From Candidatus Poseidonia sp. (GTDB lineage Archaea > Thermoplasmatota > Poseidoniia > Poseidoniales > Poseidoniaceae), in assembly GCA_022426155.1 (NCBI GenBank), contig JAKMEE010000005.1, positions 1 to 64,000 of the forward strand: 64,000 nucleotides of DNA. The letters run 5' to 3'. Position 1 is the stretch's first letter. Each line of letters begins with the position of its first letter. The position numbers were made by a program, and so were the translations under genes. Positions 31,638 through 37,507 of the stretch are shown piece after piece. A model generated the notes under the pieces. It searched no databases, was not told where the DNA came from, and was given only the letters and a program-made list of their open reading frames with translations.

Positions 31638-32847
31638 TTCCTCACGACGAATTCGAACCATTGCCAAGAAAGAATTGATTGAATTCGCAAGAGATTGGCG
31701 AACCATCCTTTCACTTTTGGTGATCCCACTCCTTATGTTCCCCGTTCTGTTCATTCTGTTTCCATTACTCTTGGCATCTGAAGCTGCTGAATTGGATGCT
31801 CTTCAGGTGAATATCGTGATTCAAAGCAATGAATTTCCTGATGATTTGGAAGATTTATTGAATAATTCGAGCATGGAATTGCACTACGAATCTCTGACTT
31901 ACGAAGGCAATCTGTCCAATCCAATAGGAGAGGAAGAACGCTTGCGCAACGGTAGCGTCGATGCAATTTTACGGTTTGAGAAAGCCGAAAATATCTGGCA
32001 TTATGCAATTTTATTCATGTCGACTTCAGAGCGCGGGCAAGAAGCTCGAAATCGTATGTTAGATGTATTGAACGATTGGGAAGCGAACGAAACTGAACGG
32101 CGAATAGTGGATGCAGGCCTTGACCCAAATACCACTATCAACCCCCTACAGTGGGATGGAGATATTGCTCAGAGCGATGTTGCAACTCAAGGGGAACAAG
32201 CTGGAATGATGTTATCGCTCTTCATCCCATTGGTTCTCTCAGTCTGGACCTTCTCATCGGCAATTCAACCGTCGATTGACATGACTGCTGGTGAACGAGA
32301 ACGCGGCACACTCGAAGCCTTGTTGGGTTTGCCTTGCTCAAGAATTGAATTATTATTTGGCAAATGGTTAGCCGTTGCCACAATCACAGGTATCGGGGTC
32401 CTCTTGCAAATCTTTGGATTACTCTTTGCCATAGGGTATTTGGCATCTACAAATCTGTTATCATTGCCGGATCTATCATTGACTACGGTCCTGTTTATTG
32501 CACTTGCAGTGATGTTATTTGCTGTGATGGTTGTTGCCTTTGAATTAGCTCTGGCGATGCGCTCTCATAGTGTTAAAGAAGCAGGTTCAGTACTCGGCCC
32601 TGCAGTGATCCTAATCCTTTTCCCTGCTTTGTTCACACAAGTGATTAACCTCGATGGGATTGAAGCCTTTTGGTTTGCTATCCCAGTCGTGAATGTTCTC
32701 CTTGCTTTACGCGAGTTATTGATGGACCGATTTGTGCTCGAACATATCCTTGTCTGGGTCGTAAGTTCAACAATTTATGCCATCGCAGCAGCGGTGTATG
32801 CTGCTCGTCAATTCAAACGAGAAGACATTGTGACAAGTCTATCTTAA
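31630..32847 (+). CDS. ABC transporter permease (NatB-like Na+ exporter type)
   Basis: N-terminal KKELIEFARDWRTILSLLVIPLLMFPVLF, large loop, GERERGTLEALLGLPCSRIELLFGKWLAV. Confidence 0.88.
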   Translation: MSDSSRRIRTIAKKELIEFARDWRTILSLLVIPLLMFPVLFILFPLLLASEAAELDALQVNIVIQSNEFPDDLEDLLNNSSMELHYESLTYEGNLSNPIGEEERLRNGSVDAILRFEKAENIWHYAILFMSTSERGQEARNRMLDVLNDWEANETERRIVDAGLDPNTTINPLQWDGDIAQSDVATQGEQAGMMLSLFIPLVLSVWTFSSAIQPSIDMTAGERERGTLEALLGLPCSRIELLFGKWLAVATITGIGVLLQIFGLLFAIGYLASTNLLSLPDLSLTTVLFIALAVMLFAVMVVAFELALAMRSHSVKEAGSVLGPAVILILFPALFTQVINLDGIEAFWFAIPVVNVLLALRELLMDRFVLEHILVWVVSSTIYAIAAAVYAARQFKREDIVTSLS

Positions 32848-34385
32848 GCTCCAAATGCAATCAAGGAATCTCGAACAATAGCACAAATAAGATCGATTTC
32901 CTCTGACGTGATGGCGAAATGCGGTGTAAAGCGCAATGCATTAACTCCACCGTGAATGACTCCTAAGCCTCGTCTTCGACACCAAGGTTCGATGGCATCA
33001 AATCCAACAACAGGAAACTTCGAAGGTTCCAATTCAGCGCTACATAGTAATCCTGTTCCTTGCACCTTGGTGATAACTTCTGGGAATTCAGCTTGGAGAA
33101 CTTTGAGTTTCTCGACAAATTCCACACCGCGATTGCGGATATTTTGACGCAATTCTGGAGTCATACGATCCAAAACGGCGACCGCTGTTTCCAAGGCACG
33201 TGGATTGGTAGTCATGGTGTTCCCATAAATTCCGGTGACGTAAAGTGAGGCTGCCCGTTCATTCATGCCTAAGACTGACAAGGGATATTGACCAGCATTC
33301 AATGCCTTTGACCATGTTTCGAGGTCGGGGGCTTCGCAGTCCTCAAATCCTTCATAATCGACGATTGAAAGTGTTCCTTGGCCTCGAATCCCAGCCTGTA
33401 TTGAATCTACCAAGAGCATACTCCCATGTTCAAGAGTCAGCTTTCTTGCTTCGTCGTAAAAATCTCGTTCAACACATTGCCCAGGGTTCCCTTCTCCTTG
33501 GACTGGTTCGATGGCGAGTAATTCAATGAAAACTCCGTCCCTGTTCGCATTGTCAAACGCCTCCCGCAATGAAGCTATGTCATTAGCAGGAACTAAAATC
33601 AAATTATCTCGTTCTTCGAATGTGGCGAGATGCTGTTGATATTTCGGAAGACATGAATGAGAGATTTGAGCAGGTCGATCAGTTCGACCGTGGAACCCTT
33701 GTTCAATCGCCATCATCTTGATTTTCTTCCCTTCATGCCTAGCACCCTTTGCCGTCAATTTTTTTGCATTGACATCGGCAATTCTACAACTGACTGTAAC
33801 GGATTCTGAACCACTATTCATGCAGATAAAGGAATGAAATGGGCAAGAGCCCCGCATGTGCCCCAACTCTTTACGCAACCGGTTTTCAAGTCGCTTTTGA
33901 GAAAAAGATGCTGTCATGACATTGGCCATGACCCAGTTTTGCGACATGGCTTCGAGGATTTCATCAGGCCCATGGCCTGCTCCAAGCATCCCGTACCCAC
34001 CATTATCATGAATAACTGCTCCATGTGCAGTGATAATCCAAGGACCACGCCCACTTAGTGCAACGTATGGATTGACAGTTGCTGGATTGTAAAAATTAAC
34101 ATATCCCTCTTGTAATTGTTCTATCATCGCCCCTTCATCCATGTCAAGGGCGCTATGACCAAATTCAGAGATGATGGCTTCTTGGCCTGCTGCTGCTTCA
34201 TGGATTGCACGCCCTAATCTCGGATCATGGGGCAAAAAGAACGTGATTTCGTCATCGGTTAATCCTGTGGTCTGCATTTGCCCAGCACGACTCCGCATCA
34301 GGTGGAGAACTTCGATTGGGGCGGGTAGCACATCGGGAACCATGTCCGTTCCTCGCCTCGGACTTCTTTGAACATTGGGGCTCAT
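32844..34385 (-). CDS. class III PLP-dependent aminotransferase (possibly L-lysine 6-aminotransferase type)
   Basis: NSGSESVTVSCRIADVNA, IEQGFHGRT, VQGEGNPGQC, LLVDSIQAGIRGQGT, WSKALNAGQYPLSVLG. Substrate not determinable. Confidence 0.85.
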   Translation of the reverse strand: MSPNVQRSPRRGTDMVPDVLPAPIEVLHLMRSRAGQMQTTGLTDDEITFFLPHDPRLGRAIHEAAAGQEAIISEFGHSALDMDEGAMIEQLQEGYVNFYNPATVNPYVALSGRGPWIITAHGAVIHDNGGYGMLGAGHGPDEILEAMSQNWVMANVMTASFSQKRLENRLRKELGHMRGSCPFHSFICMNSGSESVTVSCRIADVNAKKLTAKGARHEGKKIKMMAIEQGFHGRTDRPAQISHSCLPKYQQHLATFEERDNLILVPANDIASLREAFDNANRDGVFIELLAIEPVQGEGNPGQCVERDFYDEARKLTLEHGSMLLVDSIQAGIRGQGTLSIVDYEGFEDCEAPDLETWSKALNAGQYPLSVLGMNERAASLYVTGIYGNTMTTNPRALETAVAVLDRMTPELRQNIRNRGVEFVEKLKVLQAEFPEVITKVQGTGLLCSAELEPSKFPVVGFDAIEPWCRRRGLGVIHGGVNALRFTPHFAITSEEIDLICAIVRDSLIAFGA

Positions 34386-34415
34386 TCATCTAGTAAAGTT
34401 CAATATAGAACACCT

Positions 34416-34450
34416 TAAGTATTCGCCCAGTATTACTATGCGAATACTTA
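34416..34450. promoter_or_regulatory. 35-bp near-perfect palindrome, candidate operator
   Basis: TAAGTATTCGC-CC-AGTA-T-TACT-AT-GCGAATACTTA; centred at 34433; 15 of 17 symmetric positions pair; sits between divergent genes. Confidence 0.75.
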
Positions 34451-34475
34451 TATGCCAATGTTTTGAGGAGGAATC

Positions 34476-34646
34476 ATGCCGAAAATTTCCTTGGACATGC
34501 CTCAAGAACTGATGTATGACCTCAAATTGCATGTGGGTGATGAAAAGAAATTTATCAGTTTAGCAGATGCAGTAAGAACAGCTTGCCGAAAGATGCTTGA
34601 TCAATTGGATCAAATCGACGAGAGGCATGGTAGGAGGGGTGATTAA
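34476..34646 (+). CDS. 56-aa ribbon-helix-helix DNA-binding protein (CopG/Arc-like)
   Basis: MPKISLDMPQELMYDLKLHVGDEKKFISLADAVRTACRKMLDQLDQIDERHGRRGD; strong SD (gaggagg) before ATG; below the ORF-track length cutoff. Confidence 0.8.
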   Translation: MPKISLDMPQELMYDLKLHVGDEKKFISLADAVRTACRKMLDQLDQIDERHGRRGD

Positions 34647-34647
34647 A

Positions 34648-35223
34648 ATGGTTCAACGAGATGAAGCAATGAAAGCAGTTCGCGTTCTATTGGAGTTCAT
34701 CGAGGGTGATGGGAAAGCAGAACGTGAAGGACTGTCTCGTACTCCTGAGCGAGTTGTTGATTCCTGGCAAGAAATATACGCAGGTTATCAAATGGATGCC
34801 GAAGAAATTCTAGATGCCACCTTCAATGGCGAGGGTTATGATGGAATTGTCCTCTTGCGTGATATTGAATTTCACTCCACCTGTGAACATCACCTTCAAC
34901 CGTTCAAGGGAAGGGCTCACGTAGCATACATTCCTGTTGAACGCATTGTCGGCATCAGTAAATTAGCACGAATTGTGGAATTGCATGCACGTCGTTTACA
35001 GAATCAAGAACGCATCACAAAAGGAATTGCAGATGACATCGAGTCCTATTTGAAACCGCTTGGTGCAGCGGTCATCTTAGAGGCGTCTCATGGCTGTATG
35101 CAATGCCGAGGCGTCGCCAAACAACAGGCAGTCATGACCACTTCATCCATGCGTGGTGTGTTTTTTGAAACCGCTGAAGCTCGTGCAGAATTGATGCAAT
35201 TGATTCAACAACCAAAACTATGA
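34648..35223 (+). CDS. folE: GTP cyclohydrolase I (type IA)
   Basis: RDIEFHSTCEHHLQPFKGRAHVAYIP, RLQNQERITKGIADDI, HGCMQCRGVAKQQAVMTTSSMRGVF. Confidence 0.95.
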   Translation: MVQRDEAMKAVRVLLEFIEGDGKAEREGLSRTPERVVDSWQEIYAGYQMDAEEILDATFNGEGYDGIVLLRDIEFHSTCEHHLQPFKGRAHVAYIPVERIVGISKLARIVELHARRLQNQERITKGIADDIESYLKPLGAAVILEASHGCMQCRGVAKQQAVMTTSSMRGVFFETAEARAELMQLIQQPKL

Positions 35224-35232
35224 GGCTTTACG

Positions 35233-35892
35233 ATGATCAGTGATACATGCCAACTGTCTGGAGAATCATCTGTTGATGATCCAACCGATTTGGCAACGGA
35301 ATACAATATCGTTGAAATATTTCATTCAGTACAAGGAGAAGGATTCAGGGCTGGCATTCCTCATGTTTTTGTCAGATTTGGCTCCTGCAATCTTCGTTGT
35401 GAGTGGTGCGATACAAACTTTGACGAGCATGAACCAATGAATGCAATTGATATCTTGGGTGCGATTATGAAATTCCCGTGCAAAAATATCATCTTCACCG
35501 GAGGAGAGCCTATGTTGAATGACTTATGGCCACTCAGCCGGTTGCTCAAATCAAGGGGATATCACATATCCATTGAATCCAATGGAACCATCGAAATTCC
35601 AGAAGGTTTGCTTGATTGGATTTGTATCTCCCCGAAGGATCAAATGTATCCTAATGTCGCTATAAGGCAGCAAATAGGTGATGAATTGAAATGTGTCTAT
35701 GTTGGACAAAACCTCAGCATGTACGATGAACTGCGCAAGGGCTTTGAGCATCATTTCCTCCAACCTTGTTACATCGACACCCAGAGTGTTGAGTGGAACG
35801 GTGAAAACTTTGCATCTACAGAAGCCATCGTGAAGAAACATCCTGGTTGGAGATTGTCCTTACAAACGCACAAGTGGATGGGAATATTGTAG
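35233..35892 (+). CDS. queE: 7-carboxy-7-deazaguanine synthase (radical SAM)
   Basis: FHSVQGEGFRAGIPHVFVRFGSCNLRCEWCDTNF (CxxxCxxC), IIFTGGEPMLND. Confidence 0.94.
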   Translation: MISDTCQLSGESSVDDPTDLATEYNIVEIFHSVQGEGFRAGIPHVFVRFGSCNLRCEWCDTNFDEHEPMNAIDILGAIMKFPCKNIIFTGGEPMLNDLWPLSRLLKSRGYHISIESNGTIEIPEGLLDWICISPKDQMYPNVAIRQQIGDELKCVYVGQNLSMYDELRKGFEHHFLQPCYIDTQSVEWNGENFASTEAIVKKHPGWRLSLQTHKWMGIL

Positions 35893-35900
35893 GTGATTCA

Positions 35901-37052
35901 ATGATGAGAAAAAAGGCCGTGATGGCACTGAGTGGTGGAATGGATTCATCAACTCTTTTGCTCCGTTTATTACGAGAAAATTACGATGTCACGGCTATTT
36001 CATTTGATTATGGTCAAAATCATAAGATCGAGCTCGAACGCGCTACCGAACTGATTGAACATCTCAAAGAAAATAATCAGACGCTCACTCATCAAATTGT
36101 CCAATTGTCGAGTGCCATGAATTTATTTGAAAGTGCCCTCTTAGGTGATTCCGAAATTCCTGAAGGACATTATGAAGAAGCATCGATGAAAGCTACAGTT
36201 GTCCCTAATCGAAATGCTATATTTGCATCAATTTTGTATGGAACTGCCTTATCGTTGAGTGAAAAACATCAATGCAATTCTGTTGTGGCTTTGGGAGTCC
36301 ACAGTGGTGACCACGCCATCTATCCTGATTGTCGTCCAGAATTTTACCGAGCTCTCGAGCATGCATTTTCTATTGGCAATTGGGGCAGTGAACAGGTGGA
36401 ATTTGTCCTGCCGTATCTTGATGATGACAAAATTGGTATCTTACGGGATGGTCTTCAGTCGTGCGTGGAACTTGAATTGGAATTTGATGAAATATATGTT
36501 CGAACTATTACATCGTATTCACCCGATCAAGATGGAAAGAGTGCTGGAACATCAGGCTCTGATATTGAACGGATTCTCGCATTTCATGCAATCGGACGTC
36601 GTGACCCCATTGATTATGTCAAACCATGGGACGATGTCCTCGCCAATGCCCTGAATGTGGAACGGGCATACCGTGATGAATCATATCGAGAACAACTCAC
36701 TAAGTTACAATACCAAGTGACTCGATTGCAAGGCACAGAACCTGCATTCACCGGTCAATATTGGAATGAGAAAAGAAATGGAAATTACCATTGCATCTGC
36801 TGCGATACCCTTCTCTTCATCTCATCGATGAAGTTTGATTCTGGTTGTGGATGGCCATCATTCCATAGTGAACACCAAGAAGCAAATATTACGAGAATTG
36901 AGGATAGAAGTCACGGTATGCTTCGCACAGAAGTCCAATGCAGTCGTTGTGAAGCCCACCTGGGCCATGTATTCAACGATGGGCCTCGAGCATTTGGTGG
37001 AGAACGATACTGTATTAACTCAGCATCCATGAATTTCCTGCCTGCGGAGTGA
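35901..37052 (+). CDS. queC: QueC-like 7-cyano-7-deazaguanine synthase fused to peptide-methionine (R)-S-oxide reductase (MsrB)
   Basis: N-terminal ALSGGMDSSTLLLRLLRENYDVTAISFDYGQNHKIEL (PP-loop); C-terminal GNYHCICCDTLLF...FDSGCGWPSF...CSRCEAHLGHVFNDGP...RYCINSASMNF is a full MsrB; one uninterrupted frame. Confidence 0.93.
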   Translation: MMRKKAVMALSGGMDSSTLLLRLLRENYDVTAISFDYGQNHKIELERATELIEHLKENNQTLTHQIVQLSSAMNLFESALLGDSEIPEGHYEEASMKATVVPNRNAIFASILYGTALSLSEKHQCNSVVALGVHSGDHAIYPDCRPEFYRALEHAFSIGNWGSEQVEFVLPYLDDDKIGILRDGLQSCVELELEFDEIYVRTITSYSPDQDGKSAGTSGSDIERILAFHAIGRRDPIDYVKPWDDVLANALNVERAYRDESYREQLTKLQYQVTRLQGTEPAFTGQYWNEKRNGNYHCICCDTLLFISSMKFDSGCGWPSFHSEHQEANITRIEDRSHGMLRTEVQCSRCEAHLGHVFNDGPRAFGGERYCINSASMNFLPAE

Positions 37053-37057
37053 ACATT

Positions 37058-37507
37058 ATGACAACAAGCATACGAAGATACATCGAAACAGATACAGGAC
37101 ACCGCGTTCCAAATCACAAATCTAAATGCCGACACATGCACGGTCATCGATACAGATTTGAAGCTGAAATTGAAGGTGACGTAGTGAATATTTCAGGGGT
37201 TTCTGAGGAGGGGATGCTCATGGATTTCTCAGACATAAGTGAATTGTTAACCATACACATCCACGATGTGATCGACCATGCCTTTGTTGTCTATGAAGGA
37301 GATGAACTCGGCCGAGCCGCATGCGAGGTCATGGGGGATAGCCATCGGACGGTGATTGTACCGTTTATCCCAACTGCTGAGAATCTTGCGAAATGGGCCT
37401 TTGACACATTGGCCCCCCATATTCGATCTGCCTATGGAAATCGTCTGCAACTCGTTGCAATGCATTGCAGAGAAACTCCAAAATCCTTAGCAACATGGAG
37501 AATTTGA
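37058..37507 (+). CDS. queD: 6-carboxytetrahydropterin synthase (PTPS family)
   Basis: TDTGHRVPNHKSKCRHMHGHRYRFEAEIEG, GMLMDFSDISELL, PTAENLAKWAFD. Confidence 0.92.
   Translation: MTTSIRRYIETDTGHRVPNHKSKCRHMHGHRYRFEAEIEGDVVNISGVSEEGMLMDFSDISELLTIHIHDVIDHAFVVYEGDELGRAACEVMGDSHRTVIVPFIPTAENLAKWAFDTLAPHIRSAYGNRLQLVAMHCRETPKSLATWRI

Follow-up and report, generated by a model that had tools for sequence, protein, structure and literature searches.

The 64,000-nucleotide stretch of Candidatus Poseidonia DNA analyzed here (the window), whose archaeal SRP RNA identifies it as archaeal, carries a plus-strand operon leading from GTP to preQ0, from which a modified tRNA base is made. The gene order is RHH-folE-queE-queC(msrB)-queD, where the leading gene (34476..34646) encodes a 56-aa protein assigned below to the ribbon-helix-helix (RHH) superfamily. 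It is followed by folE, encoding GTP cyclohydrolase I (34648..35223; PF01227, 2.6e-64; TIGR00063, 5.5e-61), queE, encoding 7-carboxy-7-deazaguanine synthase (35233..35892; TIGR04508, 8e-40, below the cut-off of that model), queC fused in one frame to an MsrB (SelR) domain (35904..37052; PF06508, 1.4e-40; PF01641, 2e-49) and queD, encoding 6-carboxytetrahydropterin synthase (37055..37507; PF01242, 2.8e-25; TIGR03367, 2.5e-22). Many relatives show a spacing compatible with the fusion of QueC to this methionine-R-sulfoxide reductase; in others queC is short and leaves no room for it. The same genome also encodes TgtA (TIGR00432; locus L254, C3:49888-50862, in a 749-codon open frame), so that archaeosine is the likely end product of the operon. 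A SufC-like ABC ATPase gene adjoins tgtA. On the minus strand, a class-III aminotransferase gene (32844..34385; PF00202, 1.9e-39) diverges from the operon.

The 56-aa product had been taken for an RHH protein in the first-pass annotation, and profile comparison bears this out. Aligned by hhalign with RHH_1 proteins of the phylum, its family reached a probability of 96 and a score of 41.3 over 51 colinear columns, whereas none of 40 column-permuted controls exceeded 12.0 and the reversed profile scored 9.3; the homology to the RHH (MetJ/Arc/CopG) superfamily thus extends over the whole motif. Single-sequence Pfam and NCBIfam scans gave no RHH match at E 0.001, a PDB sequence search returned no convincing RHH match and Foldseek matched no RHH structure to the protein. 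AlphaFold monomers consist of a coil (residues 1-9) and two helices (10-20 and 23-50) located where an RHH fold expects them; they contain no strand, which is not expected to form without a partner chain. In the predicted strand, residues K3, S5 and D7 are invariant and alternate, a pattern that fits a ribbon facing the DNA. The family was found in 87 of 97 genomes of the order (a few by weak matches only) and in 94 of 119 genomes of the class, and the 33 matches obtained in a draw of 148 genomes of the phylum all came from the class of the window. Its named relatives all belong to marine group II/Poseidoniales or to closely labelled euryarchaeal genomes. A search for paralogs in the same genome returned one spurious partial match only, and a search for viral relatives found none.

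Upstream of the RHH gene, the unstranded sequence at 34416..34450, TAAGTATTCGCCCAGTATTACTATGCGAATACTTA, forms a 35-bp near-palindrome. On recount, 15 of its 17 mirrored pairs match about position 34433, as first described, and the two AGTATT motifs (34418, 34429) and the AATACT motif (34443-34448) lie where they had been placed, with a pitch of exactly 11 bp. The site ranks first among 35-bp palindromes of the window (the runner-up reaches 13/17), about 0.01 such sites being expected by chance per 64 kb in a hand calculation with equal base frequencies, and it is the sole site of its kind in the assembly. This symmetry, together with the position of the site between divergent genes, could designate a single 35-bp dyad, acting as a large-dimer operator, a cruciform or an RNA hairpin and controlling both genes. 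The relatives argue otherwise. Symmetry over the whole 35 bp averages 10.03 pairs in 92 relatives versus 9.89 when alignment columns are shuffled among genomes, and maxima of 15/17 are reached by the shuffled alignments as well. A stem test on the mirrored columns found 64.1% of paired cells versus 64.2% after shuffling, and covariation did not exceed that of the shuffles. With both symmetry and covariation at shuffle level, the long palindrome was rejected as a functional unit, and so was a hairpin or attenuator RNA, for which conserved pairing with compensatory changes is lacking.

What the upstream regions of orthologous operons conserve, and very strongly, is a series of two to four tandem 9-bp near-palindromic units, AGTAWTACT, repeated at a pitch of exactly 11 bp. 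The near-palindrome of the window corresponds to three such predicted operator units on the plus strand: unit 1 at 34418..34426 (AGTATTCGC, columns 2-10 of the aligned array, counted from 0), in phase with the two others; unit 2 at 34429..34437 (AGTATTACT, the exact consensus), delineated by the alignment and by the spacing test; and unit 3 at 34440..34448 (GCGAATACT), the best conserved of the alignment, with a nearly invariant AATA. A larger near-palindrome follows automatically wherever near-symmetric units occur in phase and in odd number. The 35-bp symmetry is a by-product of individually near-symmetric units and is not itself conserved.

The spacing was quantified in 146 distinct upstream regions, collected from orthologous operons of the same family, of the order and of named genomes; regions at most 15 differences apart were merged, and those retained are still phylogenetically related, so that the counts are not numbers of independent events. 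Unit pairs 11 bp apart occurred 158 times versus 0.4 in shuffles, and pairs 22 bp apart 63 times versus an expected 0.3. At least two in-phase units were present in 131 of the 146 regions (10.6 in shuffles), at least three in 98 (0.3) and at least four in 22 (0.02). Such in-phase repetition of a short site is what a tandem-site, autoregulatory RHH operator of the F55 type, discussed below, would show. The proposal that half-sites one helical turn apart would suit cooperative RHH dimers agrees with this 11-bp phasing. Two genera, g3 and g4 (L082-L086, L102-L111), have units nearer to the start codon or only two of them, and their promoter layout differs; in genome G073 the units have likewise moved towards the start codon or are reduced to two.

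The array also holds a defined position relative to the promoter. A predicted TATA box, TTATAT (34448..34453, plus strand), begins at -28 from the RHH start codon, and unit 3 runs into it, in a place where it would be expected to cover the BRE. A hexamer resembling TTATAW in at least five of six positions is present in 129 of the 146 regions, with its mode at -28, and the center of the final unit falls mostly at -31 to -33. The window itself has a GGAGG preceding the RHH start codon. A Shine-Dalgarno-like sequence occurs in only 22 of the 146 regions, which, together with the TATA mode at -28, suggests that in most members a leaderless transcript starts near the RHH start codon. With such a start, the units would cover the BRE/TATA position. 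The array lies on the predicted promoter (BRE/TATA) of the gene of the proposed regulator itself, a placement in keeping with the F55 mode of action.

An RNA-level explanation was also considered, in which the palindrome is part of a preQ0/preQ1-type riboswitch or another RNA element. Bacterial preQ1 riboswitches do control such genes (PMC5372724), but an Rfam search of the window at gathering thresholds returned only the SRP RNA and a tRNA, with no preQ1 or preQ0 aptamer. The TATA box is 3' of the units, which are thus not expected in the operon transcript, and the stem test gave no covariation. We regard a riboswitch as extremely improbable.

The genome-wide motif search proposed by the first-pass annotation located the array once per genome, at the preQ0 operon. 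This locus is the sole match in the same genome to the sequence-only array model R1, although at a genome completeness of 89% another target could be missing, and a model that scores arrays could let isolated single units escape. Among 58 genomes of the family, all matches with E<0.01 lie upstream of RHH/folE genes. Weaker matches in four relatives fall inside coding ORFs or, in G043, correspond to the same locus at a contig end, beside a permease gene. A multi-gene regulon was therefore rejected.

Control of both divergent sides, as initially envisaged, is not supported by the comparison of gene neighborhoods. Of the 150 distinct regions that extend far enough upstream, 58 have a divergent aminotransferase gene as upstream neighbor, 52 a codirectional ABC permease gene and 40 another or unidentified gene; two or more in-phase units occur in 49 of the 58, 47 of the 52 and all 40, respectively. 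Since it is kept whatever the upstream neighbor, the array follows the RHH gene and not the aminotransferase gene, which is probably not a target. Its retention beside permease and other genes also weighs against the single two-sided dyad, a reading that we consider very unlikely. The site does lie between divergent genes in the window, as had been noted, but the minus-strand start codon assigned at 34385 is doubtful because aminotransferase homology begins only around residues 15-30 and relatives start differently. In many relatives of the same genus, the aminotransferase starts with MFKGYLGG, at a distance of about 98 bp from the RHH start; at this position the genome studied here (window 34343-34389, minus strand) has ATGTTCAAAG, in another frame.

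The RHH gene precedes folE in nearly all loci. In some genomes of a third family of the class, an additional gene is inserted between RHH and folE, and the array still sits immediately in front of RHH. At the loci concerned (L256, L257 and L258), the intervening gene encodes a membrane protein (about 250 aa) for which no NCBIfam match was found, and a MATE-like transporter is encoded upstream. Many small RHH proteins are antitoxins. The connection between protein and array being deduced from sequence, the units might serve a different, unlinked regulator, with the RHH protein otherwise employed, for instance as an antitoxin relic. This we judge distinctly unlikely: all families examined conserve the array along with the RHH gene, even where RHH stands apart from folE, the genome has no second copy of the array, and the RHH gene has no toxin gene beside it, the next gene being folE. 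Moreover, cooperative binding to several sites is typical of RHH proteins (PMC5569661).

The direction of control is a further point. The promoter elements are preceded by units 1 and 2, a location open to archaeal activators, and the RHH regulator AvtR is reported to activate or repress depending on its concentration (PMC5569661). The RHH protein could similarly activate from the array or change sign with concentration, but the best conserved unit is the one adjoining the TATA box, which favors occlusion, and we hold activation to be unlikely.

The reading that we favor, and believe to be probably correct from the sequence evidence assembled above, is that of an autoregulated, single-target RHH repressor. 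Dimers of the 56-aa protein would bind each 9-bp AGTAWTACT unit through their antiparallel beta ribbon, and adjacent dimers, placed 11 bp apart on one face of the DNA, would bind cooperatively. With unit 3 over the BRE/TATA position, a filled three-unit operator would block TBP and TFB and thereby repress RHH-folE-queE-queC-queD, amounting to negative autoregulation of the de novo synthesis of preQ0, the archaeosine precursor. Relief might come from the amount of the protein alone or from a metabolite such as preQ0. The array, its pitch and its position at the TATA box accompany the RHH gene across the class. A more far-reaching possibility, which we advance as speculative and rather doubtful, is that of a class-wide dedicated regulator of preQ0/archaeosine in Poseidoniia, in which the 56-aa protein would itself sense a product of the pathway, such as preQ0, without a separate sensor domain.

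Repressors of the MetJ/Arc/CopG type bind as cooperative dimers to arrays in which short sites follow each other at about one helical turn. The present system resembles them by the RHH_1 profile homology of the 56-aa protein and by the spacing of its short sites; it differs in that single sequences fall under Pfam thresholds, the 56 residues include no effector domain and the target is a metabolic operon, such a target being unreported in the papers found. On the simplest reading, promoter occlusion would match the archaeal viral RHH repressors, of which F55 and its tandem repeats come nearest. F55, a 6.3-kDa protein, is reported to act as a repressor through tandem repeats overlapping the BRE or the transcription start site, its own promoter included (PMC5569661). 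Both cases would involve a small archaeal RHH repressor, as proposed here, with tandem repeats on its own promoter. However, F55 is viral and acts on several promoters with the consensus ATAGATAGAGT, whereas the present protein is chromosomal, with one target and AGTAWTACT units; the two are likened by mode of action, not by sequence. SvtR and AvtR, also from archaeal viruses, are RHH regulators of archaeal promoters for which spreading along DNA into the BRE/TATA has been proposed, but their consensus sites are imperfect inverted repeats, and AvtR has two RHH motifs per chain and can also activate (PMC5569661). Bacterial preQ1 riboswitches share with the present case the control of deazaguanine pathway genes, but they are RNA elements, of which Rfam detects none in the window.

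Tandem-site RHH repressors are thus already known, while this member and its target pathway appear undescribed: the open-access literature searched held nothing relevant on archaeal preQ0 regulators or marine group II RHH proteins. If correct, the proposed system would provide a candidate mechanism by which archaea control preQ0 synthesis at the level of transcription, none having been found described in the open-access papers searched, and a defined transcription factor/operator pair for the uncultivated marine group II archaea. With a 56-aa protein and a short single-copy site, in vitro tests of the prediction do not require the organism to be cultured. The class-wide retention of the system, combined with the occurrence of TgtA in this genome, points to a tight control over how much archaeosine precursor is supplied.
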